Origin: Candidatus Zixiibacteriota bacterium | GTDB lineage: Bacteria; Zixibacteria; MSB-5A5; JAABVY01 | Length of the DNA: 44,253 nucleotides | Direction of reading: 5' to 3' | NCBI GenBank assembly: GCA_014728145.1 | Contig: WJMC01000087.1 | Span: forward strand, 1-44,253 | Shown: positions 7,957 through 24,440 of the stretch, piece after piece | Numbering within the stretch: position 1 is the stretch's first letter | How the letters are laid out: each line of letters begins with the position of its first letter | Position numbers and translations under genes: made by a program | The notes under the pieces: model-generated | What the model saw: the letters and a program-made list of their open reading frames with translations, nothing else | Databases searched by the model: none | Told to the model about the DNA's origin: nothing

Positions 7957-8625
7957 ATGCCTTTACGAAGAGCTTTAAGCGGTGGTTCCAACAGTGAAAG
8001 TGATCAGACTCAGCGGTACTATGGTGTCGTGATCGGGGTCGTTTCCAACATCGATGATCCGGAAAACACCGGCCGTGTAAAGGTCCGTTTTCCGTGGCTG
8101 TCATCCGATGAGGAAAGCCATTGGGCCCGGGTCTGCCAGTTTATGACCGGCAACGATCGCGGGAGCTGGTTTATCCCTGAAGTCAACGATGAAGTCCTGG
8201 TGGCATTCGAGCATGGTGATGTGAACCATCCCTATGTCGTCGGGTCGCTCTACAACGGCCAGGATCAGCCACCTTCGGAGAACAGTCACAGCTCCGAGAA
8301 CAATATCCGCATGATCAAGTCTCGTAGCGGTCATATTATCAAGATCGATGACACTTCGGGATCAGAGCAGGTCGAGATCAAGACCTCCTCCGGGAAAAGC
8401 GTGCTGACCATGAAATCCGATGGTTCGATCACGATAAAATCTGACAATATTACGATTGAAGGCACGATGAAAATCGACCTGAAATCGCAGAATATAAATA
8501 TAGAAGCTAGTCAACAGCTTAAACTGAAAGGCACCTCGGGTTTTGCCGTGGAATCGACAGGAACAGGAAAAGTCGAGGCCTCCGGTCCCCTGACTGTCAA
8601 GGGAGCTGTTGTCAATATAAATTGA
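7957..8625 (+). CDS. Spike protein, gpV/gp5-like OB-fold plus beta-helix
   Basis: This is the central spike that sits below the tube and is driven through the target membrane. Residues about 20-100 form the gp5/VgrG OB domain (YYGVVIGVVSNIDDPENTGR, VKVRFPWLSS, FIPEVNDEVLVAFEHGD and YVVGSLYNGQDQPP). Residues about 120-222 are repeating beta-helix strands (GHIIKIDD, VEIKTSSGKSVLTM, GSITIKSDNITIEG, and so on). At 222 residues it has no N-terminal gp27-like hub domain, unlike Afp8 or VgrG, so it is closer in size to P2 gpV. No separate hub gene is evident in the window. RBS AGGAGACAGG lies upstream, and the PAAR tip gene follows 15 bases later. Confidence 0.93.
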   Translation: MPLRRALSGGSNSESDQTQRYYGVVIGVVSNIDDPENTGRVKVRFPWLSSDEESHWARVCQFMTGNDRGSWFIPEVNDEVLVAFEHGDVNHPYVVGSLYNGQDQPPSENSHSSENNIRMIKSRSGHIIKIDDTSGSEQVEIKTSSGKSVLTMKSDGSITIKSDNITIEGTMKIDLKSQNINIEASQQLKLKGTSGFAVESTGTGKVEASGPLTVKGAVVNIN

Positions 8626-8640: not shown

Positions 8641-9036
8641 ATGGGAATGCCTGCAGCTAAGCAGGGTGATAAGATCACGGCGGTAGACATTCATATAATC
8701 CTGATACCGGCCGCGGCAGGTGTGCCGGTCCCGACGCCGTTGCCTCATCCGTTTATGGGCATTATCGATTCGAGTTGTTCGACGGATGTCAAGATTATGG
8801 GAATGCCGGCGGCGGTAATGGGTTCCGAGGCGACAAATACGCCCCCGCATATCCCGCAGGGCGGGCCGTTCCAGAAACCTCCGACCAACAGGGGCAAGAT
8901 AGTCATGGGTTCCCCGACCGTAATGATCAACGGTAAACCGGCCGCACGCATGGGTGATACGGCGATGACCTGCAACGATCCGGTCGATCTGCCAATCGGA
9001 CAGGTGATAGCGGCGGGAACTGTAATGATAGGATAG
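8641..9036 (+). CDS. PAAR-domain spike tip protein
   Basis: This caps the spike as a sharp metal-binding cone (Afp10-like). The 131-residue protein shows the PAAR features: GMPAAKQGD at the N-terminus, a VKIMGMPAAVMGS repeat near residue 51, then IVMGSPTVMINGKPAARMGD near residue 88 and a closing IAAGTVMIG. His and Cys residues (DIHII, HPF, SSCS, TPPHIPQGG, MTCN) are available for a zinc or iron site. It contains only the PAAR domain and no C-terminal toxin extension, so effectors, if any, are delivered by another route. GAGGAGAGG gives a strong ribosome binding site, and the gp25-like gene starts 8 bases downstream. Confidence 0.92.
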   Translation: MGMPAAKQGDKITAVDIHIILIPAAAGVPVPTPLPHPFMGIIDSSCSTDVKIMGMPAAVMGSEATNTPPHIPQGGPFQKPPTNRGKIVMGSPTVMINGKPAARMGDTAMTCNDPVDLPIGQVIAAGTVMIG

Positions 9037-9044
9037 GAGTTGTA

Positions 9045-9446
9045 ATGCCTCGTAAAAATTTCCTGGGTGTGGGATTTAAATTTCCGGTCGATGTCGACCG
9101 TCGTGGCGGTGTGGCGATGTCGCGCTATGAGGAATCGATCGAGGACGCAATCGTTTTGATTGTCGGCACCGCTTTTGGCGAGCGGCAGATGCGCCCTGAT
9201 TTCGGATGCGGTATCCATGATCTTGTCTTTGCTCCCAACAACGCCAACACCCGTGCCCTGGCGGTTTACCATGTCGAGGAAGCCCTGATAAAGTGGGAAC
9301 CCCGCATTGTCGAGGTCAAGGTGACCGCCGATACCGATCCCGAGCAACCGCATATAATCAATATAGCGATAGATTATAAAGTTCGTACAACCAACAATGT
9401 TTTTAATCTCGTGTATCCGTTCTACCTGCAAAAAAGTGAGGTCTGA
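9045..9446 (+). CDS. Baseplate wedge protein, gp25-like (Afp9)
   Basis: This protein initiates sheath assembly on the baseplate. It is a 133-residue member of the GPW/gp25 family. FGERQMRPDFGCGIHDLVF, near residues 47-65, and the WEPRI segment carrying the invariant EPR motif (E85, P86, R87) are diagnostic, as is the closing YKVRTTNNVFNLVYPFYL. In T4, T6SS (TssE) and PVC this EPR loop holds the sheath-baseplate contact. The start has an AGGAG ribosome binding site. The stop overlaps the start of the next baseplate gene as TGATG, so the two wedge proteins are probably made in a fixed ratio. Confidence 0.95.
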   Translation: MPRKNFLGVGFKFPVDVDRRGGVAMSRYEESIEDAIVLIVGTAFGERQMRPDFGCGIHDLVFAPNNANTRALAVYHVEEALIKWEPRIVEVKVTADTDPEQPHIINIAIDYKVRTTNNVFNLVYPFYLQKSEV

Positions 9447-12400
9447 TGCCAATAACTCCCCCAAATCTGGATGACAGGACCCATGCCGATATTATGGAGG
9501 AATTGCGTCGGCTGATTCCGCGTTATTGCCCGGAATGGACCGATCACAATCCTTCAGACCCGGGCATTACTCTTCTGGAACTGTTCGCCTGGTTGACCGA
9601 GATGAAAATCTACAAGCTCAACCGGATTACCGATAAGACCTATGTGGCACTTCTCGATTTGATCGGGATGTCGCTTCTGTTACCGCAACCGGCTCAATCG
9701 TACCTGACCTTTACACCCGGACAAGGGCTCGAAGAGAGTGTCGTGGTTCCAGCCGGTACCCAGATTGCCACCAGCCAGACCGAGGTGACCGACAGCGTGG
9801 TCTTCGAAACGGCCGAGGATCTGAGGCTGTCACCTGTAGATCTGGCCAGGGTTGTTACCACAGCCGGTGATTCGGTTTCCGACAACAGCAGTTTTATAAA
9901 TAACCCATCGCCGGACGGCTTTCCTGTGTTCGGGGGAGTATCACAGATCGAGAGAGCGGTCTTTGTGGGCGATGATAAATTTTCTGCGTTAACGGAATCG
10001 GCCAGCCTGTTTCTGCGTTTCAAAGGAGCCTCGGAGGAGGCGCGCGCGCTTTTAACGATGCTCGACTGGGAATATTTCAACGGCAAACGCTTCAAAGAAC
10101 TGAACACGAGATTGGTATACACCGAGACATTGGGTGAAAATGAGACCCTGATTGAAATCGCTGGTCCACTTGGCGACCTCGAAAAAACCGAAATCGACGG
10201 TGTTGAGACTTTCTGGTTTAAGGCTACACTGACCGCTATACCGTCGAGCGAGCAAATTACGGAACTGGACACGATCGCGGTCGAGGCCCGAATTGTCGAG
10301 GATGGTCCGACTCCTGAAGCCGGCTTCTCCAATATCGCAGGTTCGATCTTCCTGCCTTTGGATTTCTCTAAAAGCGTTTACCCATTCTCGGAAGAACCCA
10401 AGTACGATTTTGCTTTCTATATCTCCTCACCGGATATCTTCTCCAAGACCGAGGCGGAGGTGATCCTGGATATCGACCTGGCCGACCCCTCGGTTGTCGA
10501 AGCGCCGGTGGCATCTTCCGACCTTGAACTTCTCTGGGAATATTACAACGGTCGAAAATGGGTCGAGTTGGGTGCAACTTCGCCCACCGGGGTCAGCCGT
10601 CCGGCAGGAAAGTTCAACTTTACAGATTCGACACTTGCTTTCACACATTCGGGCGAGATCAAATTCGATCGTCCCGAGGATTTCAGCCCCACCAAGGTCA
10701 ACGGCCAGGAAGGTCACTGGATTCGGTGCAGGCTGATTAAAGGCAATTACGGTCAGGCTGGTCATTACGAACAGGTCGGTAAAAACTGGGTCTGGAAAGA
10801 TGATAACCCGCTCAGGCCACCCTGCATAAAGATGTTGACATTGCGTTACAACCAGAAGCCGGTGTTTGTTTCCAACCTGAAGTCCTATGCGGATTTCACA
10901 TATCGCGATTTCTCCGGGCTTATCAAAAAGGAATACAACCCATTTCAATTATTTGAAGAGCAGAGGGATCGTTCGCCCAGTCTCTATCTGGCATTTAAGT
11001 CGATCGCTGAAAAGGACAGTTACGGCATCTGCTTCATTGTCAAGGAAGACCAGCGGCTGCCTGTCGATGAGCTGACCACGCGTTATTTCGGGGATATTTT
11101 CGGAACTGAAAACCGGCAGGAACAGAAGTTGTGGTGGGAATACTATAACGGCAAGGACTGGGCAGACCTGATGCCGATCGATACTACCGAGAATTTTAAG
11201 TGTAGCGGACAGGTCAAATTCGATTTTCCGCGCGATTTCAAGCCGGTTGAAAAGTTCGGGCAGAAAAACTACTGGATTCGGTGTCGCTTTCAGGATGGCG
11301 GTTACGCTGTTGCGCCGATGCTCAAGGCGGTCCTGACTAATAGCGTAATGGGGCTCAACCAGTCCACGATAAGCGGGGAAATTTTGGGATCCTCAGACGG
11401 CACACCTGATCAGACTTATAAGTTTTCCAACCCTCCCGTTTTGGAGGGGCAGGAGATATGGGTTAGAGAAAACACTCCTCCTTCAAAAAAAGAAGAAGAA
11501 CAGATTAAGGCCGAAGAAGGTGACGACGCTATCGATACAGTCACTGACAATGCCGGCAATCCTTCCAAAATCTGGGTGAGGTGGCATGAGGTCGACAATT
11601 TCTATAACTCCGACGGCAGTGCGCGCCATTATATCCTCAATCATATCGAGGGCAAAATCAGATTTGGGGATGGTCGCAAGGGCATGAGACCCCCTTCGGG
11701 AACGAATTCGATCGTGGCCCGCCGCTATGCGACCGGCGGTGGTGAGCAGGGCAATGTCGGCAGTAAAAGCCTGACCATCCTTCGTCGGGCAAATCCAAAT
11801 ATAGCCTCGGTTATAAATTTCTTCCCGGCCAGTGGCGGGTCTGATCTGGAGACGGTCTCGGATGCCAAACAGCGCGCGCCACAGATTTTCCGCAACCGTT
11901 TCCGGGCGGTCACCCGCGAGGACTACGAATGGCTGGCTCAGAGAGCTTCGTCGCATATAGCACGTACGCATTGTATTGCCAACACACCAGCGGAGGGCGA
12001 GGTTACATTGATCGTAATCCCGAAGGAGACTCCCGAACAGCGTGCCCGGGCGGATAAGATCACACCTTCGACACAGCTTTTGAACCTGGTGCGCGATTAT
12101 CTCGAACCGCGTCGTCTGTTGACAACCAGGCTCCATGTCGAGCGACCATCGTATTTGGAGGTCTCTTTTGAAATCCGTTACCAGGTAACCGCCACCGGTG
12201 CTGATCCCGAGCGGATCAAACGCGATCTTGAGCAGAATATCCGGCGTTACCTGCATCCGCTCTATGGAGGCAATGACGGCCGGGGATGGTCGTTCGGAAA
12301 AGCCTTGGTCAAGACCGATCTTTATAGAATTGTGGAAGATACCGAGGGCGTCGAATATGTCGACCGCCTTGAAATATATGATGAACAACGTAAACTGTTT

Positions 12401-12481
12401 ATAGACAAAATGAGGGCTCTGCCTAATCAGCTTTTCTATGTTGTCGATGTGAACAGCTTCCAGGTCAGAAGAGAGTATTGA
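9446..12481 (+). CDS. Large baseplate protein, Afp11-like (gpJ/gp6 family)
   Basis: This is the main structural component of the baseplate ring. The first 80 residues (NLDDRTHADIMEELRRLIPR, then EWTDHNPSDPGITLLELFAW) are the signature of the Afp11/TIGR02243-type putative baseplate proteins. The C-terminal third (about 740-1011) has the gpJ/gp6-like segment: ILNHIEGKIRFGDGRKGMRP, TREDYEWLAQRAS and LLTTRLHVERPSYLEV. Between these lie three copies of a beta module opening with W-E-Y-[YF]-N-G near residues 206, 363 and 563; copies 2 and 3 both end in W-I-R-C-R. At 1011 residues it is within the range of long family members. It starts by TGATG coupling to the gp25-like gene and ends overlapping the next start. 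Confidence 0.93.
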   Translation: MPITPPNLDDRTHADIMEELRRLIPRYCPEWTDHNPSDPGITLLELFAWLTEMKIYKLNRITDKTYVALLDLIGMSLLLPQPAQSYLTFTPGQGLEESVVVPAGTQIATSQTEVTDSVVFETAEDLRLSPVDLARVVTTAGDSVSDNSSFINNPSPDGFPVFGGVSQIERAVFVGDDKFSALTESASLFLRFKGASEEARALLTMLDWEYFNGKRFKELNTRLVYTETLGENETLIEIAGPLGDLEKTEIDGVETFWFKATLTAIPSSEQITELDTIAVEARIVEDGPTPEAGFSNIAGSIFLPLDFSKSVYPFSEEPKYDFAFYISSPDIFSKTEAEVILDIDLADPSVVEAPVASSDLELLWEYYNGRKWVELGATSPTGVSRPAGKFNFTDSTLAFTHSGEIKFDRPEDFSPTKVNGQEGHWIRCRLIKGNYGQAGHYEQVGKNWVWKDDNPLRPPCIKMLTLRYNQKPVFVSNLKSYADFTYRDFSGLIKKEYNPFQLFEEQRDRSPSLYLAFKSIAEKDSYGICFIVKEDQRLPVDELTTRYFGDIFGTENRQEQKLWWEYYNGKDWADLMPIDTTENFKCSGQVKFDFPRDFKPVEKFGQKNYWIRCRFQDGGYAVAPMLKAVLTNSVMGLNQSTISGEILGSSDGTPDQTYKFSNPPVLEGQEIWVRENTPPSKKEEEQIKAEEGDDAIDTVTDNAGNPSKIWVRWHEVDNFYNSDGSARHYILNHIEGKIRFGDGRKGMRPPSGTNSIVARRYATGGGEQGNVGSKSLTILRRANPNIASVINFFPASGGSDLETVSDAKQRAPQIFRNRFRAVTREDYEWLAQRASSHIARTHCIANTPAEGEVTLIVIPKETPEQRARADKITPSTQLLNLVRDYLEPRRLLTTRLHVERPSYLEVSFEIRYQVTATGADPERIKRDLEQNIRRYLHPLYGGNDGRGWSFGKALVKTDLYRIVEDTEGVEYVDRLEIYDEQRKLFIDKMRALPNQLFYVVDVNSFQVRREY

Positions 12482-13377
12482 TGGTTACCGGACAGGCGAC
12501 AGCGTCAAAGAAGATGCCGAAACTAATCGGGCATGATCTCGAAAAAGCAGAGAAGATCTGCGCGCTGGAACAGATACCGATCCGTTCGATTGAATTCGAG
12601 GAACACCCGGCACGCGAAGGTACGGTCATGCACCAGAATCCCCGGCCGGGTGAGGATGTGCCTGATGGTGGTATTCGTATCGTGGCCGCGTCGAAGAGCT
12701 ACCTGAATTATCTGCCCAATATCTATCGCATGTATGATGTCCGGCAGGGGAATTTCCTGAAACGCTTTCTGTGGCTTTTCAAGCATCCCGATCTGCCGAT
12801 TGATCGGATTCTGAACCGGATTCACACTTATTTCGAGCCCTACAACACTCCCTCTGAATTTCTACCATGGCTGGCATCGATACTGGCACTACCTCTCGAT
12901 GAGAGCTGGGATGAGGCCAAGAAGCGCGAATTGATCGCCAATATCGTGAAGATCTATAAACTGCGCGGTACTCCCCGTGGATTGTCGCTGTACCTCAAAA
13001 TTTACACCAACAGTGAACCGGAGATTATAGAGAATTACTGGCCCTTTAACGGTTTCCAGGTAGGAGTAGCTTCCACGGTCGGGGTCGATTCGATCATCAT
13101 CGGCTATATCGAGAAAGCGCATTGCTTCACAGTGAGGATCCCGCGTACCGTCGACGAGACCCCGCTGGAGATGATCCGCCGGATTCATGCCATAGTGCAG
13201 GCCGAGAAACCGGCTCATACGAACTATTACATGATCTTTGCCGAACCTGAGGTCGAAGAAGCCGACTTTATGCAGGTCGGAGTGGCTTCCATGATAGGTG
13301 TGGAATCATGGGTCGGAGAAACTGATAACAATCTTGATGAAATACAGGAAGGTGAACGAGATGACCGAGGAGAATAA
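12481..13377 (+). CDS. Afp12-like baseplate protein with N-terminal PASTA domain
   Basis: This is a phage tail protein I (P2 gpI/TIGR02242) homologue that should pair with the Afp11-like protein in the baseplate wedge. The tail domain covers about residues 78-260: YLPNIYRMYD, LPIDRILNRIHTYFEPYNTP, LPWLASILALPLDESW and YKLRGTPRGLSLYLKIYT. Fused in front is a PASTA domain at about residues 11-72 (MPKLIGHDLEKAEKICALEQ, then GTVMHQNPRPGEDVPDGG). PASTA modules usually bind peptidoglycan or muropeptides, or act as spacers. I am not aware of them as standard Afp12 parts. A short motif, QVGVAS-x(2)-GV-[DE]-S, occurs near residue 194 and again near 264. The upstream TTG at 12478 is passed over in favour of ATG 12481, which overlaps the previous stop. 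Confidence 0.88.
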   Translation: MVTGQATASKKMPKLIGHDLEKAEKICALEQIPIRSIEFEEHPAREGTVMHQNPRPGEDVPDGGIRIVAASKSYLNYLPNIYRMYDVRQGNFLKRFLWLFKHPDLPIDRILNRIHTYFEPYNTPSEFLPWLASILALPLDESWDEAKKRELIANIVKIYKLRGTPRGLSLYLKIYTNSEPEIIENYWPFNGFQVGVASTVGVDSIIIGYIEKAHCFTVRIPRTVDETPLEMIRRIHAIVQAEKPAHTNYYMIFAEPEVEEADFMQVGVASMIGVESWVGETDNNLDEIQEGERDDRGE

Positions 13378-14902
13378 GGAATTTAAGCGTGTATCCTTTT
13401 TCCGGGGCTTCTTCGCTTCGGAGGACGATTTCAATCACCTGGTTGACTACGACCTGGAGAAACACAGGCTCCACAACCGGTTGCATCATTCACCGGGGGT
13501 GATGTTGAACTTCTCCGGCGAACTGCGGGTGATCGCTCGTGAGAAAGGCGATTTCTCGATCGAGATCGCACCCGGTTACGCAATCGATGGGTTGGGTAAT
13601 GATATCTTCCTGTGGGAGACTAAGGTTCTGGCGATAGATGTTTCAAAGTATCGCCTGCCTATCGTTGTTTACCTGGTGTTGAAATATTTTGATGAACCGG
13701 TCGATTTCATAACCAACAAGGCAAATCCACAATATAAGGGTCACAAACGTATCGCCGAACGTGCCAAGCTCGAGTTTTCAGCCACTCCACCGGAAATCAC
13801 GGAGGGTATCGAATTAGCACGGGTTCGTCTGGAGGAGGATCTCAAGGATGTCAAAAATCCTGCCGATCCCAGGGCCCCGCAGGCTGGTGAACTGGACTGC
13901 CGTTTCGCACCGATCGCCGGTTCGTTCGGTTGGTTTTTGTCACCCGAAATAAAGTCCCGGATTTTTACCGTGTATAACGACATGAAAGTCGTTTTCATGC
14001 AACTCAACAAGCTCTATGATTTGAAGTATTCGCTGGAAGCATACCAGGCCGCCCTGACTGCCGAAATGGTTTCGATCGGTGGTAAAATCGATTTCCGCAA
14101 CGCCTTCGAATTGATCAGGATAATTGTTGATATCGAAAAAGAAATCTCTGCCGAACTGGAGAATACTCCCAATCTCTCGCAACGCAAGGAGGTCGGCGAA
14201 TACAAGGATAATTTGCAGGCACTTTTGAACCTGACCTCGGCATCGGATATTACATCCGAGGACCTCAATAACCTGATTATCTATCAATCCAAGGCATCCA
14301 ATTCTCTAAAAAAGCTTCTGGCTCCGAAGGTGGCTGAAATACGATCGGAAATCGAGGGAGAACTGGAGGAATTCAAGGGCGAACGGTTGTCCATGGATGA
14401 GATCAAGATCTGGTCGAAGGAATTCCCTGAGGAGCTTATGGTCGATGAGGTGCGTTACAAGCTCGTCGATTGGATCGATATCCTAAATGATCAGTCAGAA
14501 AAAGATCACGAGTTCAAGCTGGGCGGGGTCAAAGAAGAGCTTCGCCAGAAACAGAACTTCTTCTTCCCCGATGGTACCCGGATGTCCGATCGGGGGCGAT
14601 TGCACTGGGAAGGATTTGCGCAGTTCAAGATCAAGAATCTTAAACCGGAGCTCGATATTCTTATGATCCGTCGGATCGACTATGCTTACGGCGGACTTAA
14701 AACTGATATCGAAGTCGATGGCGAGAAAGTCGGTGTCTGGGAAATCTCCGGTAATGACCGTAAGTATCGCTGGCGCAATATGCCGTACATAATAAATGGG
14801 AAATTCATTACCAAAGAGGAAGTGGTTGTAAAACAGACGGCTATCTCAGCGGAACGTGATGTCAATATGTTCGGTTACTGGTTTTACCAGGCGATCGTAT
14901 AA
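13361..14902 (+). CDS. Probable baseplate adaptor or fibre-related protein
   Basis: No name can be given with certainty. The N-terminal 90 residues (FFRGFFASEDDFNHLVDY, EKHRLHNRLHHSPGV, then IEIAPGYAIDGLGNDIFL) follow the pattern HNRxLHxxGV...PGYALDxxGNEI that I associate with poorly characterised proteins in eCIS and phage-like loci, at the position where fibres or adaptors attach. Residues about 205-365 look helical or coiled, and the last 100 residues are beta-rich. There is no signal peptide or transmembrane segment. ATG 13361 is chosen because AGGAAGGTG at 13346-13354 precedes it. This start overlaps the Afp12-like gene by 17 bases; a longer reading from 13298 would overlap it much more. 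The position after Afp12 corresponds to the fibre gene afp13. Confidence 0.7.
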   Translation: MTEENKEFKRVSFFRGFFASEDDFNHLVDYDLEKHRLHNRLHHSPGVMLNFSGELRVIAREKGDFSIEIAPGYAIDGLGNDIFLWETKVLAIDVSKYRLPIVVYLVLKYFDEPVDFITNKANPQYKGHKRIAERAKLEFSATPPEITEGIELARVRLEEDLKDVKNPADPRAPQAGELDCRFAPIAGSFGWFLSPEIKSRIFTVYNDMKVVFMQLNKLYDLKYSLEAYQAALTAEMVSIGGKIDFRNAFELIRIIVDIEKEISAELENTPNLSQRKEVGEYKDNLQALLNLTSASDITSEDLNNLIIYQSKASNSLKKLLAPKVAEIRSEIEGELEEFKGERLSMDEIKIWSKEFPEELMVDEVRYKLVDWIDILNDQSEKDHEFKLGGVKEELRQKQNFFFPDGTRMSDRGRLHWEGFAQFKIKNLKPELDILMIRRIDYAYGGLKTDIEVDGEKVGVWEISGNDRKYRWRNMPYIINGKFITKEEVVVKQTAISAERDVNMFGYWFYQAIV

Positions 14903-14922: not shown

Positions 14923-15384
14923 ATGAGACTAAATATTTTTGGAAAATTTTTTAGATTTGGACGAAAGGATGTTCCCAAAATGCCAAAGCGCGACAAGAAG
15001 AAATCTCAGGCTACGCGTGTTGTTGACGCGCGCGGCGCCGGACGAGGTAAGACCCGTGTGGTTGGTGTCGGCTCCACGGTGGAGGATCTGCCGGTTGTCG
15101 GCTGGCTGGTTATTATAAACGGTGAATTCAAGGGCCAGGATTATCGTCTCGATGATCGCAAGTACACGCTCGGCCCGACCGAAAACGAAGATATCGTCGT
15201 GCGTGACGATTATCTTTCTTCGCCCCATTGCGCCATCCGTTATGAAAACGGCAGTTTCTATATCAACGATCTCGGCTCTAAAAACAAGACCTATGTCAAC
15301 GGCGAGGTACAGACCGAGTGGGAACTGATCGACAATGACCATATCAAGATCGGCAAGACCGAGATGATCTTCAAATGTCTCTAA
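14923..15384 (+). CDS. Soluble FHA-domain protein
   Basis: This is a cytoplasmic phosphothreonine-reader protein of the injection-system operon. The FHA domain spans about residues 64-153: VIINGEFKGQDYRL, then the LSSPHCAIRYENGSFYINDL core and SKNKTYVNG. The usual Gly-Arg before the acidic loop is Gly-Pro here (YTLGPTENEDI), so the arginine that contacts the phosphate backbone is missing. The basic N-terminal tail carries two threonines in similar settings, ATRVVD (T31) and KTRVVG (T44), reminiscent of the phosphorylated tails of GarA/OdhI-type FHA proteins. An internal Met (MPKRDKKK) is an alternative start. It follows the adaptor gene by 20 bases. It is a likely kinase substrate and scaffold; in type VI secretion the analogous position is filled by Fha1. 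Confidence 0.85.
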   Translation: MRLNIFGKFFRFGRKDVPKMPKRDKKKSQATRVVDARGAGRGKTRVVGVGSTVEDLPVVGWLVIINGEFKGQDYRLDDRKYTLGPTENEDIVVRDDYLSSPHCAIRYENGSFYINDLGSKNKTYVNGEVQTEWELIDNDHIKIGKTEMIFKCL

Positions 15385-15398
15385 GCAGGAGGGGGGAT

Positions 15399-17618
15399 AT
15401 GCATAAAGACTTCAGGCCCGTTTGGATTCTGCTTTTCTTATTGTTATTTTGCGCGCAGGCTTCCGCGATTAAAGTAGAGACCCAGCCGCGCATCAAACTA
15501 CCTTCGGGTACCGGCGATACGGAGGTCTCCAATGTCAAGGCGATCTATGTCGGTCCCAAGGGAGAGATCTTTATCGGTTCGGCCCGCAACAACCGGGTCA
15601 AGGTCTATTCCTCCAACGGCCAGTACCTGCGCACCATCCCGTCCTCGGGCGACGATAATATCGACGTGCCCCAGGATATCGATATCGGCGTCGATGGCTC
15701 GATCTATGTCGTCGACCGTGACCGCGATGAGCTCAGTAAGTTCGATGAAAACGGTTTACGAATGGGTACTCTGGGCGGTGAAAAAGCATTTGATCGGCCG
15801 ATGTCGGTCTCGGTGGCGCGCGATGGCAGGGTGTATGTGGCCGATAAAGACAAGGAATCGGTACAGATATTCAATCCCTCCGGGCAGAAACTGGGAAGTC
15901 TGCAGGGAGCCGGTTTCGATGAGCCGATTGCGGTCGATGTAGACCACCAGGGCAGAGTCTTTGTGCTCGATAAAAAACGCAAGTCGGTACAGGTCTTCAA
16001 TTCTGACAATGAATTCCTCAAAGAAATCCGGATTGCCTACGCAGGTAAGGAAATCGACGAACCTGTCGATTTGTGTGTCAACCAGCATGGCGAGGTGCTG
16101 GTCCTCGACGAGGACGAGAAAGTGTTTTATTTTATGGCCGACTATGAGACCTCGGAATGGTCACGGCCGTATGGCGGAATGTTCGATAAGCCGATCTCAA
16201 TCGATGTTGTTGGAAGAGATATCGTCTATGTCCTCGACAACAAGGACGAGATAATTTGGAAATTTAAGCTCTCCGAATTGCCTTCTCTGGTCAAAGAAAA
16301 GACAGTCAAGGAATCGATAGTCAAGAAAGCTGTGATCTCGACCAACATCGATGCTGAAGCCAATGTCTATGTCAACCGTTTGCTTCCCGATGATGACATG
16401 GTTGTCCTGTCGGTATTTGAAAACAATCGCAATATCGCCACAGGTTTGATCGCTGAAAACTTTACAAGGGTGGAAGTCGATGGTGAAGCGCTCGATGTGA
16501 AATCAGCGGAGGCATTGTTCTCTTCCGGTGAGATCGATTTTATCTTCATTCTTGGAACCGCTGAGCTTCGTGCTAACGAGCTGAGTGAAGTACGTGAAAA
16601 AATCACGACGGAGTTTTTAAGCAAGCTGGATGAGTCCCGTCACCGCGTGGCGTTTTTTACCTGTGCCGGTGATGTTGAGATGGCCTTGCCGTTGGAAAAA
16701 TCTTTCTCAAAACAGAAATCAGCAGTAGAAAAGCTGGAGTTTGATGGCGATAAAGTGGTGCTCTATGATGGTATCTTGAGCGCATTATCGTACTACGATT
16801 CACTTCAAAGCGATACATATCCAATCTTCATAGTGTTCACTAACTCTGACGATAAATCCAGCCGCAACAGCTTTAATACACTCGAAAAGTACAAACGCTC
16901 GCATGGCCTTCCTCAGGTCTATACGCTGGTCTATGACGACAAAAAAGATCCTCAGATGCTTGAGGATCTCAAGAAGATCGCTGATTTTTCGGGCGGTTTC
17001 CTCTACTCTGCGGACAAGCGTGACATGATCTATTTTCTCTTCCGGCGGGCTGTCGCGCTCATCCGCGGTCAATACTGGCTGGCCTTAAACAACCTGCCCA
17101 CGGAGGGTGAACTCACTGTCGATGTCGATGTCGATCTGGATGGAAACGTCCTGACAGAAACTCATCCGTATTCTGAACCGAGTGGTGAAGAAGTTGATAT
17201 CAAGGGGAAATCGTTTTTTGAAAAATATGGCCTGATCCTTTTGATTATACTGCTGGTGATTATCCTGTTAATCATCATCATTATCATATTGAAGAAAGCT
17301 TCTGAGAAATCAAAGGCACCGATAGGCGAGGCACGGCTGGAAGTCAAGTCGGGCAGTGCATCCCAGAAAGAATACCGCCTGCGCAAAGGGGTTAATAAGA
17401 TCGGATCCGCAAACGACAACGATATCGTCCTTCAGGTAGAGGGAATCTCTGGCCATCATGCAATAATCGAGTTTGCCGGCGGTAAATATACGCTTGTCGA
17501 TTCCGATTCTACTAACGGGACCTATGTGAATCGTAATCGAATCGACCGGCGGATTTTGATCAACAATGATGTGATCAGTATTGCTTCTGTGGTTGATTTC
17601 GTGTTTAAAACCGGATAG
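15399..17618 (+). CDS. NHL beta-propeller / VWA-like / TM / FHA membrane protein
   Basis: This 739-residue single-pass membrane protein has an unusual domain chain. It has a signal peptide (WILLFLLLFCAQASA, cleavage near residue 23). Next come about six NHL-type propeller blades at residues 30-300, with repeats of the form DVDHQGRVFVLDKKRKSVQV. A Rossmann-like region at about 345-580 resembles a VWA domain but lacks a clear DxSxS site. A transmembrane helix (about 611-634, almost all Leu/Ile) precedes a C-terminal FHA domain at about 645-738. The propeller and VWA-like parts should face the periplasm and the FHA the cytoplasm. The FHA has IGSANDNDI in place of IGR, and SGHH at the Ser-x-x-His site. 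Start 15399 is set by AGGAGGGGGG at 15387-15396. It could transmit an envelope signal to the FHA/kinase network or anchor the machine. Confidence 0.85.
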   Translation: MHKDFRPVWILLFLLLFCAQASAIKVETQPRIKLPSGTGDTEVSNVKAIYVGPKGEIFIGSARNNRVKVYSSNGQYLRTIPSSGDDNIDVPQDIDIGVDGSIYVVDRDRDELSKFDENGLRMGTLGGEKAFDRPMSVSVARDGRVYVADKDKESVQIFNPSGQKLGSLQGAGFDEPIAVDVDHQGRVFVLDKKRKSVQVFNSDNEFLKEIRIAYAGKEIDEPVDLCVNQHGEVLVLDEDEKVFYFMADYETSEWSRPYGGMFDKPISIDVVGRDIVYVLDNKDEIIWKFKLSELPSLVKEKTVKESIVKKAVISTNIDAEANVYVNRLLPDDDMVVLSVFENNRNIATGLIAENFTRVEVDGEALDVKSAEALFSSGEIDFIFILGTAELRANELSEVREKITTEFLSKLDESRHRVAFFTCAGDVEMALPLEKSFSKQKSAVEKLEFDGDKVVLYDGILSALSYYDSLQSDTYPIFIVFTNSDDKSSRNSFNTLEKYKRSHGLPQVYTLVYDDKKDPQMLEDLKKIADFSGGFLYSADKRDMIYFLFRRAVALIRGQYWLALNNLPTEGELTVDVDVDLDGNVLTETHPYSEPSGEEVDIKGKSFFEKYGLILLIILLVIILLIIIIIILKKASEKSKAPIGEARLEVKSGSASQKEYRLRKGVNKIGSANDNDIVLQVEGISGHHAIIEFAGGKYTLVDSDSTNGTYVNRNRIDRRILINNDVISIASVVDFVFKTG

Positions 17619-17628
17619 GTGTGTGTAA

Positions 17629-19047
17629 TTGCAGATTATTGTCGAGTTCATCTCCGGTGAAAACGTCGGCAGTCGCAAGAGGTTTTCCGGAGATTCGGTG
17701 CTGGTGGGAAGATCGGGAAATTGCGATCTGGTGCTTGATTCCGATGTCGTCTCTTACCAGCACTGCCGTATAAATATCAAAGGTGACGGGCTGTTTTTGA
17801 CCGATCTGGGATCATCCAACGGCACTTATGTCAATGAATCTCCCCATGATAAGGGCTATATTGCCTTCGGTGACCTGGTTCGTTTCGGAGAAGGCGGTCC
17901 CGAGGTCAAGATTACCTATACCGATGAATCCGCGCAACCTGGCAAGCGTGCCAAAACCGAGATGGTTCAGCATGCTGACACAGTGCTTGTCCTGGAAGTC
18001 TCCGGGGATAAAACTTATCGTTATCCGCCCGGCAAGATAATTGTCGGAAGGGAAGTCGATTGCGACCTTCCCCTGGATCACCTGATGGTTTCCCGCGCTC
18101 ATGCCGAAATCAATTTCCGTCCGCCCGAGCTGACTGTCCGTGACCTCAACTCCACCAATGGTACTTTCATCAATGGTAAAAAGATTGACAGCGCGCGTCT
18201 TACTGCCGGCGATGAAATCGTCTTCGGAGATAATGGTCCCGAAGTAACAGTCGATTTTGGAGGTGACGGCGCGGTTAGTATTAAAAAGAGCGGTCGCAAA
18301 CTGGCTCTGGTCGCAGTCTTCGTGATTATCGCTTTGATAGTGGCAGGAGGATATTTTGCGCTTTACCGGCCCTACACGGAAAAGCAGGAGGTCGAGAAGA
18401 AATCTCTCAATGAATATGTCGCCTGGAGGCTGAAAGATCTTTCTGCCCAGATGGGCGATCCGCAGGACGAGATCCCCTTGATTTTTGTCGAAAGTGTAGC
18501 CGGTTATGTCGAAAAATTCACAGGCAATCTGCGCAACTGGTTTTCGCGCTCAATGGAACGTGCCCGGCCACAGCTCGGTATGGTCCGCAGGCTCCTGCGC
18601 GGTGCAGGTCTGCCAGAGCATTTCGCCTGGCTGGCGTTTGTCGAATCCGGTTATGATACGACGGTTACCTCCCATGCCGGCGCGCGTGGTTTGTGGCAGT
18701 TTATGCCCGCAACCGCGAGACAATTTGGTTTAAGAGTGGATGGGTCAGTCGATGAACGTATCTACCCTAAAAAATCGACACAAGCCGCTTGTAAATATAT
18801 TAAACAGTTGTATAATTTGTATAACTCGTATATGCTGGCTATGGCCTCGTACAATACCGGGGAAGGCAGGGTAGCCCGTGCATTGCGCAGAATCGATGTG
18901 ATCGGTGAAAATCGTTTCTGGTACCTGGTTAAAAGCGATATGCTTCACAACGAGACCATGGGGTATGTACCCAAGATCATGGCGGTGATGATTATCGCCA
19001 CTGATCCCGAGAGGTTCGGCTTCGAGAACGAGGATAGCGAACGATGA
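17629..19047 (+). CDS. Membrane-anchored FHA-FHA-lytic transglycosylase
   Basis: This is a fusion of two phosphothreonine readers to a peptidoglycan-cutting enzyme. FHA1 (about residues 1-100) has VGRSGNCDLVLDS and SYQHCRI; FHA2 (about 120-215) has VGREVDCDLPLDH and SRAHAEI. Both keep the Gly-Arg and Ser-x-x-His binding residues. A transmembrane helix at about 224-246 follows. The C-terminal SLT domain (about 310-465) has the catalytic Glu339 in FVESGYD, GARGLWQFMPATARQFG and MLAMASYNTGEGRV, as in MltD-type transglycosylases. The topology implied is FHAs in the cytoplasm and the enzyme in the periplasm. TTG 17629 is the only start that keeps FHA1 whole; AGGTGTG lies upstream. It overlaps the kinase gene by 4 bases. 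It could open the cell's own wall for the injection machine under phosphorylation control. Confidence 0.92.
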   Translation: MQIIVEFISGENVGSRKRFSGDSVLVGRSGNCDLVLDSDVVSYQHCRINIKGDGLFLTDLGSSNGTYVNESPHDKGYIAFGDLVRFGEGGPEVKITYTDESAQPGKRAKTEMVQHADTVLVLEVSGDKTYRYPPGKIIVGREVDCDLPLDHLMVSRAHAEINFRPPELTVRDLNSTNGTFINGKKIDSARLTAGDEIVFGDNGPEVTVDFGGDGAVSIKKSGRKLALVAVFVIIALIVAGGYFALYRPYTEKQEVEKKSLNEYVAWRLKDLSAQMGDPQDEIPLIFVESVAGYVEKFTGNLRNWFSRSMERARPQLGMVRRLLRGAGLPEHFAWLAFVESGYDTTVTSHAGARGLWQFMPATARQFGLRVDGSVDERIYPKKSTQAACKYIKQLYNLYNSYMLAMASYNTGEGRVARALRRIDVIGENRFWYLVKSDMLHNETMGYVPKIMAVMIIATDPERFGFENEDSER

Positions 19048-21704
19048 GCCTGCGCAAGATAATCGACAACCAGTACGAAATCCTGAGGCGGATAAAAACC
19101 GGCGGTTTCGGCACGATCTATTACGGCTGGGATATTACGCTCGATCGACCTGTGGCTATCAAGGAGGTAGCACAGTCGCTTTTGGGTGATAAGCAGTACA
19201 TGGATATGTTTGTCGATGAAGCGCTCAACACGGCCCGCTTGAACCATCCTAATATAGTCCAGATTTACAGCCTGCGCAGGACATCCGAGAACAACCTGTA
19301 TATTATCATGCAGTTCGTCGAGGGTATTGACCTGCGTGACCTGATCGAATACTTCATTGAACGTGATGGCCGGGTGCCGGAGAACCTGGCTGTGTTTATT
19401 ATTGGCGAGATCTGCAAGGCACTCGAGTACGCCCATAACCTCAAAGACCGCAGGACCGGTCAGTCCCTGAATATCGTGCACCGCGACATATCACCATCAA
19501 ATATAATGCTGTCAGTCGAGGGCGCCGTCAATTTGATTGATTTCGGGATTGCCAAAGCGCGTCATCGGGTGGCCCAGAAAACCCAGACCGGATTTGTCAA
19601 GGGCAAGGTGGCATATCTTTCGCCTGAGCAACTGGAGGGCAGGGATGCTACCCGCCAGAGCGATATCTTCTCTCTGGGTACGGTTTTTTATGAACTTTTG
19701 ACCGGATGCCAGGCGTTTGTGGGAGACTCCGATTTTTCGATCATGAAGAATATCATGTCAGGAAGGATCGATTTCAGCAGGTTAAATGATCAGGACCTCA
19801 CCCCTGATTTACGCGAGATCGTCAAGAAGTCATTAGCGCGTGACACCGCAGATCGTTATAAAACTGCAAACGAGATGTATGTCGATTTATATGAACTGAC
19901 CCGCAAGCATTATCCGGGTGAACCGATGTCCGACCTGTCAAGGCTCGTGCATGAAATTCATATCGGCGAGGACACTGTACCGGGAAGCGAACCCTCTCTT
20001 CCGCAGCCTGAGGACGAGAAGTCGGATCAGCAGAATATCAAGACACAGGTTCTCTCGGCCGGGGACAATCCGTTCGCCGAGATATCCGAGCCAGAGCAAA
20101 AACCAAAACCGGAACCAAAACCAAAACCGGAGCCTGAAGCTTCTGAGAGCGATCATCCCAAACAGAAGCCATCAGAAACACCTTCGCAACCCGGACCGGG
20201 CGAGGAAGCTAAAACACAGATTTTTAATTCCGAAGAGGCTCGCACAGTCGTTCACGACACCTCCAGCGCTGAAGCGCGCACAGTTATTCACGACACCTCA
20301 CAAGCAGGAGCCAGATCCGGCCGCGGAGGGTTTAATTTCAATTCGATTGCCGCCAATTTTAAACGTATCGACAGCCGGGTCTGGATATATGCGGGCGGAT
20401 CGCTGGGAGTCTTGATTTTAATCCTGATTTTAGCGCTGTTGCTTCGGGGGGGCGGTGAAAGCGGACCTGTGGGAGATTATCGTGTCTGGATCAACAGCGC
20501 GCCCGAAGGTGCCGAGGTCTATTTGAATGATGAACTCTATGGTAAGACACCGCTTCAACTGGTCGAACTCGAGGATGGCGAGTATGATCTGCGTCTTCTC
20601 CATCCGGAGGCAGATCCGATTGATACGCAATTTGTACTGACTGAAGGTTCAGAGGTGACTTTTCCAAATTTTGTCCTCACGAGAGAAGTCTATGTCAATT
20701 CGATTCCACAGGGGGCAGAAGTTTATGTCAATTCCAGAGAAACCGATCTGATCACTCCAGCGCTTGTCGATGTGCCGATTATGGACAGCGTTAACATCAG
20801 GCTCGAGCATGAAAACAGTAAATATCCGGTCAAGCTTGCCGGTTTTGAGATCGAAAGCGGTGAATTTCAGGCGGATGATGACTATATATGGGAAAAGCAG
20901 TTTAACGAAGATGATGAACGCTGGGAACTGACCGGGCGATTCTTAAAAGAGATCACGATTTCATCCAAACCACAGGGCGCGGATGTCTTGATAGATGGGC
21001 GCGAAACCCCGATTGGACAAACACCGGGCAAGATGATGATCCCGTTCGGATCGTCAAAACTGACCCTGGTAAAAGCAGGTTTTGAAACCAAGGTCAGAAC
21101 CGTCAACATCGCTTCGGATTTTAAGGGCTCATTGTTTTACGAGATGTTTCGCCAGGTAAAAATCAGCGCGGTTGATAAGAGTGATCCCGATGGTCCCGAT
21201 CTGAAAGCGACTGTCTACAAGATCGAAAGCGAAGGCAAGGTCTCACAGGTCAATGAGAAAACACCCTCTCAGATGCTTCTTTCCGGGGTCGAGCACAGGA
21301 TCTACCTGGCTAAAGACGGCTACCGTGATACGAGCCTGATTATCGGGGTCAACCAGAATGAGCTGGTGGCGAAGATGACTTCCAAAAGCGAAACTCAAGC
21401 GTCCGATCAACCAGTTGTCAGAAAACCAGAGGAAGATAAGGACAAGGCGCAATTACTGTTTATCTTTACCGATAGAAAAAGCAAGGAGCCCCTTGAAGGT
21501 GTCGATGTCGTGGCGGAAGAAAAGGATACTCGCGAACGGATTTTGCTGGGTAGTACTAATTCGGAGGGACGTCTCGAAGTCAGGCTGGCGGAAGGTAAAT
21601 ACAAGTTTATCGCCAACAAAGACGGCTACCGCGAATGGGATGATGGTGAAAAAATCAGTAAAGGGAAAAATTATAAATACAAAAAGAAGCTGAGAAGAGA
21701 TTAA
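19044..21704 (+). CDS. Transmembrane Ser/Thr protein kinase with PEGA repeats
   Basis: This is a Hanks-type kinase. The kinase domain at about residues 8-275 has the glycine loop TGGFGTIYYG, catalytic Lys40 (VAIKEV), HRDISPSN with Asp148, DFG at 166-168 and the activation-segment threonines in KTQTGFVKG. It is an RD kinase, the class usually activated by loop phosphorylation. A disordered Pro/Glu/Lys linker (about 310-440) holds four similar threonine sites, KTQVL (T334), KTQIF (T391), RTVVHD (T401) and RTVIHD (T413). A transmembrane helix at about 446-467 leads to three PEGA-type repeats (from about 479, 548 and 635) and a C-terminal carboxypeptidase-regulatory-like beta domain (about 802-880), all predicted periplasmic. 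It is the likely writer for the FHA proteins around it and is translationally coupled to both neighbours. Confidence 0.95.
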   Translation: MSLRKIIDNQYEILRRIKTGGFGTIYYGWDITLDRPVAIKEVAQSLLGDKQYMDMFVDEALNTARLNHPNIVQIYSLRRTSENNLYIIMQFVEGIDLRDLIEYFIERDGRVPENLAVFIIGEICKALEYAHNLKDRRTGQSLNIVHRDISPSNIMLSVEGAVNLIDFGIAKARHRVAQKTQTGFVKGKVAYLSPEQLEGRDATRQSDIFSLGTVFYELLTGCQAFVGDSDFSIMKNIMSGRIDFSRLNDQDLTPDLREIVKKSLARDTADRYKTANEMYVDLYELTRKHYPGEPMSDLSRLVHEIHIGEDTVPGSEPSLPQPEDEKSDQQNIKTQVLSAGDNPFAEISEPEQKPKPEPKPKPEPEASESDHPKQKPSETPSQPGPGEEAKTQIFNSEEARTVVHDTSSAEARTVIHDTSQAGARSGRGGFNFNSIAANFKRIDSRVWIYAGGSLGVLILILILALLLRGGGESGPVGDYRVWINSAPEGAEVYLNDELYGKTPLQLVELEDGEYDLRLLHPEADPIDTQFVLTEGSEVTFPNFVLTREVYVNSIPQGAEVYVNSRETDLITPALVDVPIMDSVNIRLEHENSKYPVKLAGFEIESGEFQADDDYIWEKQFNEDDERWELTGRFLKEITISSKPQGADVLIDGRETPIGQTPGKMMIPFGSSKLTLVKAGFETKVRTVNIASDFKGSLFYEMFRQVKISAVDKSDPDGPDLKATVYKIESEGKVSQVNEKTPSQMLLSGVEHRIYLAKDGYRDTSLIIGVNQNELVAKMTSKSETQASDQPVVRKPEEDKDKAQLLFIFTDRKSKEPLEGVDVVAEEKDTRERILLGSTNSEGRLEVRLAEGKYKFIANKDGYREWDDGEKISKGKNYKYKKKLRRD

Positions 21705-23035
21705 TGCCGAAGATAATTTTGCAAAAAGACGGCAGTATAGTCAACACTTTTGATTTTCCCGGTCGCGAGGAAATCAGTGTCGGGAGCTCATCCGGTTGTG
21801 ATGTCCCGATAGAAGATCCCGCTCTGGCATCGGAGCAGGCCAAAATAATATTGCGAAAGGATGGTTTCTACCTCCAGCTCGTGACCCATATACCAGCGGT
21901 CTTTGTGACTGGCGAAAGAGTCGAGGGGGAGGTTAAGCTCGAGGATGGCGATACGATCAATATCGAGGAATACGATCTGGTCCTCAATGTCCTTGATGAT
22001 GAGCTGGAGAAGATCGCTGACGCAGAACCCCGCCAGGAAAAACCGGTAGAAACAGAAGAACAAGAAAAGACGGAAGATTCCCAAAAGTCTGATGAAGAGA
22101 TTTCGATTGAAAAAGATGAATTGAAACCTGATAAGTTAGAAGAAAAACCGGCAGAAGATCAAGTTGAATCCTCAACTGAGAAAGTCCCTGAAACAGGACC
22201 TGAGGAAACAGCCGAAGTTAAACAGGATGAGGATGGGCCGGATGTCCCGGATGAGAAAGTACGGGTTGAGAAAACCGAGGAGTATCATACTCCGGAAGAG
22301 CCGGCGAAAAGCGAGGATGAGCCAGATAAAGTAGAAAAAGCGGTCGATAAAGCTATTGAAAAGGAAGAACCGCGCAAACCGACTCTTGAACCACGCAAAC
22401 CGACGATCGCTCCGCAAAAACAGGAACAGCCGATCGAGTCGGCAGAAAAAGTATCTGATGCGCCTGCTGAATCCGCTCACAAGACCAAGGTGCTGGATGC
22501 CGGGGATACCCCCGATGAGTCTGCTCATAAGAAACCTGAACCACAGCCTTTGAAACCTGATGAGGAAGATATGTGGCTGGTGGTGATCTCCGGACCATTA
22601 CAGGATCACAGGTTCAAGCTGATTAAGGGGCCTAACAGAATTGGCCGAGACCGCCAGAAAAATGATATAATCGTCCGCCTTGACCGCAAGGGTGAAGTTG
22701 ACACCTCGATCTCGCGAGAACACGCGGTTGTCGACTACACGGATGGAGTTTTCTACCTGAGCGATACAAAAAGCCAGATGCGTACTAAACTCAACGATCG
22801 TACGATCTCCACCGATGAGGTCCTTCCACTCAAGGAGGGCGACCTGATCGAGATATCCTCGGTGCGCGAGAGCACAGTATTCAAATTGGTGTCCGAGAAA
22901 AACATCGATGCTCCGGTAGCAAAGATAAAAATTGACGCGATTTCACCGGAGAAGTTACAGCGGTATCTGCCGTATATACTTGTCGGCGTGGGATTGCTGG
23001 TGATAATATTGATATTAATTTTGATTCTAAAGTGA
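21704..23035 (+). CDS. Tail-anchored double-FHA protein
   Basis: The N-terminal FHA-like fold (about residues 1-100) is degenerate: VGSSSGCDVPIED lacks the Arg, and ASEQAKI replaces Ser-x-x-His. A long acidic linker rich in Glu, Lys and Pro (about 105-285) includes AHKTKVLDAGD, with T261, nearly repeating a segment of the kinase linker (KTQVLSAGD). The second FHA, at about 288-400, is intact, with IGRDRQKNDIIV and SISREHAVV. The protein ends in a hydrophobic helix (LPYILVGVGLLVIILILILI) followed by one Lys, so it should be tail-anchored with everything else in the cytoplasm. TAATG links it to the kinase gene. It is probably a membrane scaffold that brings the kinase, the phosphatase and an FHA-bound partner together. 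Confidence 0.9.
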   Translation: MPKIILQKDGSIVNTFDFPGREEISVGSSSGCDVPIEDPALASEQAKIILRKDGFYLQLVTHIPAVFVTGERVEGEVKLEDGDTINIEEYDLVLNVLDDELEKIADAEPRQEKPVETEEQEKTEDSQKSDEEISIEKDELKPDKLEEKPAEDQVESSTEKVPETGPEETAEVKQDEDGPDVPDEKVRVEKTEEYHTPEEPAKSEDEPDKVEKAVDKAIEKEEPRKPTLEPRKPTIAPQKQEQPIESAEKVSDAPAESAHKTKVLDAGDTPDESAHKKPEPQPLKPDEEDMWLVVISGPLQDHRFKLIKGPNRIGRDRQKNDIIVRLDRKGEVDTSISREHAVVDYTDGVFYLSDTKSQMRTKLNDRTISTDEVLPLKEGDLIEISSVRESTVFKLVSEKNIDAPVAKIKIDAISPEKLQRYLPYILVGVGLLVIILILILILK

Positions 23036-23042
23036 TATTGCC

Positions 23043-24440
23043 GTGAAAATTGAATTTACCGCATTGACCGATGTCGGTCGGGTCAGGGAACTGAACGAAG
23101 ATAATTTCAGGCTTTTGCCGGAAAATGATCTGGCAGTTGTTTGCGATGGAATGGGTGGGCATGCGGCCGGGGAAGTTGCTTCCGAGCTGGCAGTTGAGAC
23201 AATTGGAGATGTGATCGCGGATTCATCTCAGTTGACTGATCCCCCGGATTCTCTGAAACTCGATAAAGGATTTTCGAAGTCCGGCCGTAAGATGGTGCAC
23301 GCGATTCGCCTGGCCAGTCGCAGAATTTATCTCAAGTCTGTGCGCAATGAGGAGATGCGGGGGATGGGTACCACGGTTGTCACCACTCTATTCGAGAACG
23401 ATAGCGTGATTATCTGTCATGTCGGAGACAGCAGGGTATACAGGTTCCGCAACGGCAATCTCGAACAACTCACCATGGATCATTCCTGGGTCAATGAACT
23501 GATCAACTCGAAACAATTAACTGAAGAAGAATCCAAGAGTTTTGTGTCCAAGAACGTGATCACCCGCGCGCTGGGGACAAGAGAAGATGTCAAGGTGGAT
23601 ATTCGTCAGGACAATACCTGCGATGGAGATATCTACCTGCTCTGTTCTGATGGTTTATGCGGATTCGTTTCCGATGGAGATATTCTCGCGGTCATGTCAG
23701 ACAACGGTCTCTCATTGGATCAGATGGCGCAAAAGCTTGTTGACATGGCCAACCAGGCGGGAGGTGAGGACAATATTACAGTTGCCCTGGCGAGGATTAC
23801 TGATCATGTTAACTGTGATGAAATCGACAAAAACTTCTCCCGCCAGACGGTCGATGTCGAATCTGATGCTGAACTGGAACATGAAAACGACGTCATTAAG
23901 AAGCTTTTCGATTCCAATCGATCTTCAGGAGAGCAAGTGACCGCGCGTGTGGATACAAGGCCTCTTAAGGTCCCGTCGAGAAGACGTTTTCGGTTTGGAT
24001 GGCTTTTACTCGTCTTGATTCTGATTGCCGGTGGGGTGGGTGCATGGGCTTACCTGAATGATTACAGGGACTTTCAATATACTGTCGATGGGTGGATAGA
24101 TGATGTCCGGCAGGTGATTTCCGGTCAAGAGGAACAAAAACCTGCACCTTCCGAAATTGTCGATGTGCCCCGCGGGACCGCCTACCTCAGGATCGGGGAC
24201 TTTCCGGATTCACTTCTGGGGTTAATCCTGTACGTCGATATGGTTCCACAGGGGTCGGTAAGACAGTATTTGAGTGAACGTCTGGGTCTCGATCCGGGAA
24301 TGCATACACTTCAACTCAAAGACGGGAATGACTCGCTTTATGCCAGCCTGAGGCAGGTTTTCGACAGCGGACAGGTCTTTCTCGACTACTCTGATTTTAA
24401 TTTTGTGCAACAAAAAAGCCCGCCTGAATTCGTGGAATAG
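23043..24440 (+). CDS. Transmembrane PP2C-type Ser/Thr phosphatase
   Basis: This is the eraser partner of the upstream kinase. Residues about 1-255 carry the PP2C/PPM motifs in order: GRVRELNEDNFR, VVCDGMGGHAAGEVAS, GMGTTVVT, HVGDSRVYRFR, LTMDHSWV, LLCSDGLCGFV and GGEDNITVAL; the metal-binding aspartates are all present. A linker leads to a transmembrane helix at about 321-341 (GWLLLVLILIAGGVGAWAYL). The periplasmic tail (about 375-460) has a PEGA-like look (AYLRIGDFPDSLLGLILYVD, then GLDPGMHTLQLKDG). GTG 23043 is the start that fits the conserved N-terminus; its Shine-Dalgarno is weak. It is the last gene of the operon. In type VI secretion PppA counteracts PpkA in the same way. Confidence 0.95.
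   Translation: MKIEFTALTDVGRVRELNEDNFRLLPENDLAVVCDGMGGHAAGEVASELAVETIGDVIADSSQLTDPPDSLKLDKGFSKSGRKMVHAIRLASRRIYLKSVRNEEMRGMGTTVVTTLFENDSVIICHVGDSRVYRFRNGNLEQLTMDHSWVNELINSKQLTEEESKSFVSKNVITRALGTREDVKVDIRQDNTCDGDIYLLCSDGLCGFVSDGDILAVMSDNGLSLDQMAQKLVDMANQAGGEDNITVALARITDHVNCDEIDKNFSRQTVDVESDAELEHENDVIKKLFDSNRSSGEQVTARVDTRPLKVPSRRRFRFGWLLLVLILIAGGVGAWAYLNDYRDFQYTVDGWIDDVRQVISGQEEQKPAPSEIVDVPRGTAYLRIGDFPDSLLGLILYVDMVPQGSVRQYLSERLGLDPGMHTLQLKDGNDSLYASLRQVFDSGQVFLDYSDFNFVQQKSPPEFVE

Follow-up and report, generated by a model that had tools for sequence, protein, structure and literature searches.

A contractile injection operon with its own signalling genes

In the window, that is, the whole stretch of 44,253 nucleotides of contig WJMC01000087.1 from a Candidatus Zixiibacteriota bacterium, the forward strand carries all genes from position 10 to position 24440. 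The first two (10-942 and 984-1922) encode exported proteins of about 310 aa without a clear Pfam family, followed by genes which Pfam assigns to a contractile sheath (1949-3697), an inner tube of the gp19 family (3701-4150), a CIS_tube/LysM baseplate hub protein (7323-7943), a Phage_base_V spike protein (7957-8625), a PAAR spike tip (8641-9036) and a gp25 baseplate wedge protein (9045-9446). Between tube and hub lies a gene for a protein of 1057 aa (4150-7323), which is conserved towards both ends but differs strongly in the middle from one relative to another and is possibly a tape measure or a cargo-like part. Domain matches further point to a Baseplate_J/TIGR02243 baseplate protein (BpJ, 9446-12481), used here as query for locating related loci of contractile injection systems (CIS), and to a CIS12/Tail_P2_I baseplate protein with an N-terminal PASTA domain (12478-13377), an assignment that stays below the equivalog cut-off. 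A baseplate-region protein resembling CIS13 (D534, 13361-14902), 83-85% identical inside the window's family, is recognised by a weak match only (E 0.0035). The two exported proteins at the start belong to a family of exported proteins or lipoproteins of about 300 aa that was also seen elsewhere (L097, L235, L236): six paralogues are interleaved with sheath and tube genes in the CIS locus of genome G001, and one relative adjoins an FHA gene in G036 (L057). A separate protein with three PASTA domains is encoded downstream among housekeeping genes (28903-29670).

The second part of the operon, read from the same strand, encodes signalling proteins. Pfam and alignment identify a small soluble FHA protein of 153 aa (14923-15384), 87-89% identical across the family, and a protein composed of signal peptide, NHL beta-propeller, vWA-like region, transmembrane (TM) helix (about 620-638) and FHA domain (15375-17618), whose vWA domain is recognised by Pfam in the Myxococcota counterparts. 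Next comes the gene of main interest (17629-19047), for a protein of 472 aa which we call FF-SLT, and then that of a Ser/Thr kinase (19044-21704) with a TM helix at about 448-466, two PEGA domains (Pfam) and, by inspection, the VAIK, HRD and DFG motifs. The stop codon of FF-SLT and the start codon of the kinase overlap by 4 bp (ATGA), in the same way as in G001 and G002. The operon is completed by a protein of 443 aa with the order FHA-linker-FHA-TM tail (21704-23035; Pfam, alignment) and by a PP2C-type Ser/Thr phosphatase (23043-24440) of the Stp1 family, scoring above the NCBIfam cut-off, with a TM helix at about 316-334. Five of the signalling proteins are predicted to cross the membrane once. 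Kinase, PP2C phosphatase and FHA proteins thus form a set resembling PpkA, PppA and Fha, with the TagH equivalog cut-off not being reached. A canonical T6SS is unsupported, as TssM/IcmF (PF06744) was absent from the nine genomes searched, four of Zixiibacteriota and five of Myxococcota. Sheath, tube, CIS_tube hub, spike, PAAR, gp25, TIGR02243 and CIS12 resemble the parts of eCIS and related CIS, with a Pvc16-type part present as well; an AAA+ ATPase (CIS15) was not found among the operon genes scanned with Pfam, the upstream genes having been scanned in part.

A tandem FHA pair joined to a lytic transglycosylase domain

FF-SLT starts with TTG, preceded by GGATAGG, and combines two FHA domains (FHA1 about 6-98, FHA2 about 119-211), a TM helix (about 225-245) and an MltD-type SLT domain (about 305-465). 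Both FHA stretches together with the SLT domain score far above the Pfam cut-offs (FHA 7e-40, 135.7 bits against 20.7; SLT 1e-23, 83.6 bits against 21.3), and a single hydrophobic segment (about 225-243) separates them. The SLT part matches MltD of Pseudomonas aeruginosa (8rhe) in phmmer (E 4e-24), and the FVESGYD motif, which contains Glu339, is aligned to the part of that enzyme around its catalytic Glu; the GLWQ and AxYN motifs and the SLT fold are likewise present. At 93.6 bits the protein remains well below the 508 bits required for the MltD equivalog (PRK10783), and we regard it, judging by this score, as the carrier of an MltD-type domain and not as MltD itself. An AlphaFold2 model (mean pLDDT 71.6) consists of two beta-sandwiches, a helix (226-257) and a helical SLT domain, with pLDDT of about 80 in the FHA blocks, mostly 62-85 in the SLT domain (weak at about 342-352) and low values in the linkers; Foldseek relates it to the FHA structures of GarA, OdhI and FhaA and to MltD with bulgecin. 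The earlier note on this DNA had described two intact FHA domains, one TM helix and an SLT domain with catalytic Glu339 in one polypeptide, and this description is confirmed by Pfam, alignment and orthologues, the predicted structure being in agreement. Since the orthologues in G001, G002, G015 and G029 repeat the same domain order, FF-SLT is not an artefact of open reading frame prediction.

The TM helix has a Lys/Arg-rich flank on its N-terminal side and a signal peptide could not be recognised in FF-SLT, which suggests that the FHA domains reside in the cytoplasm and the SLT domain in the periplasm. As part of a best explanation in which our confidence, taken as a whole, falls a little short of even, FF-SLT is predicted to be a single-pass inner-membrane lytic transglycosylase carrying a cytoplasmic tandem phosphothreonine reader. 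The SLT domain might alternatively be an anchor that binds peptidoglycan rather than an enzyme; wall binding combined with FHA-type anchoring would suit a dock, and PASTA and LysM domains are also found in the baseplate genes, but none of the 15 homologues aligned departs from the catalytic Glu and the whole set of MltD motifs is conserved, which leaves this reading very improbable.

It is also conceivable that FF-SLT is a lysin serving an extracellular CIS: triggered by phosphorylation, it would cut the wall, and the resulting lysis would free the particles. The eCIS-like structural genes (CIS_tube, TIGR02243, CIS12, Pvc16-type) would fit, and eCIS are known to be released through lysis by dedicated lysins (PMC10598620). 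However, FF-SLT appears to be anchored in the membrane and shows no signal peptide, the operon contains no recognisable holin or spanin, the five single-pass signalling proteins suit a docked machine, and the architecture occurs also in organisms without CIS (see below), so that we consider a lysin improbable.

Readers and non-readers among the FHA domains

All FHA domains were aligned to one model, allowing the phosphothreonine (pThr) sites to be compared. FF-SLT turned out to be the only protein of the operon whose FHA domains have fully intact sites: Gly-Arg, Ser, His and Asn-Gly are kept in both domains, in the orthologues as well, and R28, S42 and H45 are invariant over the 15 aligned rows. 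In the 153-aa FHA protein the pThr-contacting Arg is replaced by Pro (GP) and the Gly of Asn-Gly by Lys, the propeller/vWA-TM-FHA proteins have Ser or Ala instead of the Arg (GS in the window), and in the 443-aa protein FHA1 is degenerate while FHA2 retains Arg and Ser and has lost Asn-Gly. The pattern extends to related CIS loci, where in 36 of the 40 cases that could be examined the CIS13-like gene (D534) has an FHA gene within 2 kb downstream. The Arg is absent from every one of these first FHA genes (0/36), occurs once among 29 proteins of the vWA-TM-FHA class and is kept in all 13 long proteins with an N-terminal FHA domain. Arg loss in the small FHA and vWA-TM-FHA proteins beside this CIS class spans phyla, and the distribution of lost and kept Arg across the FHA classes suggests scaffold FHA domains plus one reader per system.

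A possible ligand was noticed in the form of the motif [KRA]-T-x-[VIM]-[VILMF], located in linker segments: in the 153-aa FHA protein, at residue 109 of FF-SLT, at residues 333 and 390 of the kinase and at residue 260 of the 443-aa FHA protein. Within the operon it is confined to phospho-signalling proteins, it is conserved in relatives, and six copies were counted in the linkers where 0.14 would be expected, the motif having been chosen post hoc. Out of sample it is weakly enriched in Myxococcota, and we therefore treat these positions as candidate phosphothreonine sites in the sense of a working hypothesis only.

Occurrence with and without the contractile machine

Searching 133 Zixiibacteriota genomes, we found that three genomes of the window's family have the full FHA-FHA-TM-SLT architecture, always within the CIS operon; of the four Zixiibacteriota CIS loci, the three with a contig long enough to cover this position all include FF-SLT, the contig of the fourth ending before it. 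Two genomes of another family (G015 and G029 of f10; 93-99% complete) also have the architecture, retained as a pair with the propeller/vWA-TM-FHA gene. There are no CIS genes around this pair, and the genome-wide search, which in G012, G015 and G029 covered the sheath only, detected no sheath in either genome. In G012 the gene is split over two contigs (L095, G012:C324; L043, G012:C233) whose ends carry overlapping, similar sequence, so that it likely represents a single fused vWA-TM-FHA-FHA-TM-SLT protein. It is followed by a kinase-like protein with PEGA domains, the kinase half of which does not have the usual motifs, and a sheath was not found in this genome (74% complete). The fusion hints that the neighbouring vWA-TM-FHA protein and FF-SLT of the window work together. 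Exported proteins encoded beside it were compared with the two exported proteins that open the window, and the match was not significant (E 0.06). In G036, a cluster of FHA, kinase/PEGA and PP2C genes resembling that of the window (L238 9611-13450, G036:C41) has no CIS genes within 19 kb.

Genomes with related baseplate genes were likewise searched for FHA-TM-SLT proteins, which in Myxococcota contain one FHA domain instead of two. Among 195 Myxococcota genomes, 13 have an FHA-SLT protein, 12 have this CIS subtype and 11 have both (an SLT match in G184 without FHA was not counted); FHA-SLT thus occurs in 11 of 12 genomes with the CIS subtype against 2 of the 183 others (Fisher p about 3e-15, uncorrected for shared ancestry and with the co-occurrence concentrated in one lineage). 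The baseplate gene has one FHA-SLT copy 9-10.5 kb upstream of it, sharing its contig and strand, in four of these genomes (G137, G139, G161 and G187). In G148 and G149 FHA-SLT is located off the CIS contig, and so are the second copies of several Myxococcota, which belong to another clade. G207 and G213 have FHA-SLT, and neither sheath nor baseplate was found in these genomes. Most other Myxococcota CIS relatives and all Spirochaete ones searched have no FHA-SLT and at most a plain MltD-type SLT protein.

A conserved gene for a lipoprotein-like product of about 467 aa, without a Pfam family above cut-off, lies directly 3' of the CIS-linked FHA-SLT gene in Myxococcota (L192 10005-11411, L194 5654-7054). 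The CIS relative on plasmid pTRESU01 of Treponema succinifaciens (L098) includes two M23 metallopeptidase genes, which may point to a different wall enzyme serving such a related machine, and archaeal contigs of Methanosarcinales/ANME (L170-L176) carry baseplate relatives of 30-32% identity together with PAAR, spike, sheath and tube. Viral contigs searched with FF-SLT, D534 and BpJ yielded nothing apart from three unrelated SLT matches, and among plasmids FF-SLT retrieved SLT or FHA halves only, no record covering 80% of the query.

In a tree of SLT domains, the FHA-SLT proteins of the window's family (f1), of f10 and of Myxococcota occupy separate places. A single FHA-SLT clade is rejected by the AU test at p=0.037, with long branches in the tree; one common origin is to this limited extent disfavoured, and FHA and SLT domains may possibly have been joined more than once.

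These distributions bear on the main rival explanation, according to which kinase, phosphatase, FHA readers, vWA/propeller sensor and lytic transglycosylase constitute a general phospho-controlled module of envelope remodelling, independent of CIS, which entered the operon secondarily and serves wall growth or turnover, or merely the timing of CIS production or firing. The CIS-free pair in G015 and G029, the G012 fusion next to its kinase-like PEGA protein, the G036 cluster and the FHA-SLT proteins of G207 and G213 all speak in its favour, and from such occurrences it follows that the module also functions, or did so in the past, where this machine is missing. Yet by itself a general module leaves the co-occurrence and linkage in Myxococcota unexplained, where FHA-SLT is nearly restricted to CIS genomes. 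We regard it as somewhat less likely than the reading below, albeit as the strongest competitor.

A phospho-operated opening of the producer's wall?

The earlier note proposed that phosphorylation in the cytoplasm recruits or positions a periplasmic wall-cutting enzyme, letting the tube pass the producer's own wall; it also suggested that the enzyme would take the place of the specialised muramidases found in other secretion systems, which remains conjectural. We tentatively favour the reading of FF-SLT as a phospho-recruited, membrane-anchored lytic transglycosylase opening the wall for a membrane-docked CIS, though we put it just under an even chance. Membership in the operon, co-occurrence and linkage in Myxococcota, the invariant Glu and the missing TssM agree with it. 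That the architecture also exists away from CIS genes, an observation the note itself had named as adverse if widespread, holds for five genomes in which no CIS was detected (G015, G029, G012, G207 and G213), and together with the many CIS relatives that have no FHA-SLT this means that its interpretation is supported in part; the mechanism is nonetheless plausible and has gained support from the co-occurrence across phyla. In this scheme FF-SLT would be recruited through phosphorylation, would cut the wall in vivo and would take part in tube passage, and the CIS would be docked at the membrane as opposed to being released. With the PP2C phosphatase acting against it, the kinase would phosphorylate Thr sites in a neighbouring protein, candidates being linker sites of the small FHA protein, of the kinase itself, of the 443-aa FHA protein and of FF-SLT. 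Binding of pThr by the FHA pair of FF-SLT would gather the enzyme at the docking site of the CIS on the inner membrane, and a local cut in the producer's own peptidoglycan would then allow the tube or spike to pass. The Arg-less FHA proteins (the 153-aa and the vWA-TM-FHA protein) would be scaffold parts of the dock and not phospho-readers. Generalising further, Zixiibacteriota, Myxococcota and Spirochaetota might share a distinct class of membrane-docked CIS without TssJLM, with an inner-membrane dock made of non-reading FHA folds, much as the T3SS ring protein SctD has an FHA-like domain, and with an intact FHA-transglycosylase fusion as phospho-operated wall gate, an extension we judge to be rather more doubtful.

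Dedicated wall-opening enzymes are a feature of secretion systems, VirB1 and EtgA being examples. In T6SS the producer's wall is opened by the lytic enzymes TagX (PMC5061870) and MltE (PMC5841429), to which FF-SLT would be similar in purpose. In the parts of the sources available, no fusion to a phospho-reader is described for MltE, TagX, VirB1 or EtgA, whereas FF-SLT is of the MltD type, anchored in the membrane and equipped with FHA domains predicted to be cytoplasmic. With MltD (SLT family 1D) it shares the catalytic domain, 8rhe being the nearest solved structure; the matched MltD of the PDB has LysM domains, which FF-SLT lacks, adding FHA-FHA-TM instead. The regulatory side recalls the PpkA-PppA-Fha pathway of T6SS, in which a membrane Ser/Thr kinase, a PP2C phosphatase and FHA proteins are encoded with a contractile machine and secretion is activated by Fha reading pThr14 of TssL (PMC3953482), an FHA domain reading pThr at the membrane being also the switch proposed here. 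Unlike there, a TM helix connects the intact reader with a lytic transglycosylase domain, PEGA domains are part of the kinase and TssM was not found. Among CIS other than T6SS, CisA of Streptomyces is likewise a single-pass protein with a cytoplasmic N-terminus that ties the machine to the membrane, but its N-terminal region is unstructured and neither FHA nor transglycosylase is mentioned in its description (PMC12237407). Thylakoid-anchored CIS and eCIS have related sheath, tube, CIS_tube and TIGR02243 baseplate genes; anchoring of the former is attributed, in the part of the source available, to baseplate and fibre extensions, and a review of eCIS mentions no FHA, kinase or transglycosylase. 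Published FHA-SLT fusions or CIS of Zixibacteria/Zixiibacteriota were not found in the open-access literature, most subscription journals lying outside it.

A phospho-reader and a wall cutter, for which T6SS provides separate precedents, are, going by domain assignment, united here in one polypeptide. For CIS other than T6SS, neither the way in which the tube gets through the wall of its producer nor the licensing of firing is settled, and a single protein coupling cytoplasmic phosphorylation to periplasmic wall cutting would, if true, allow both to be tested through one gene. Its recurrence in two phyla, along with the division into Arg-less scaffold FHA domains and intact readers, leads to clear predictions.
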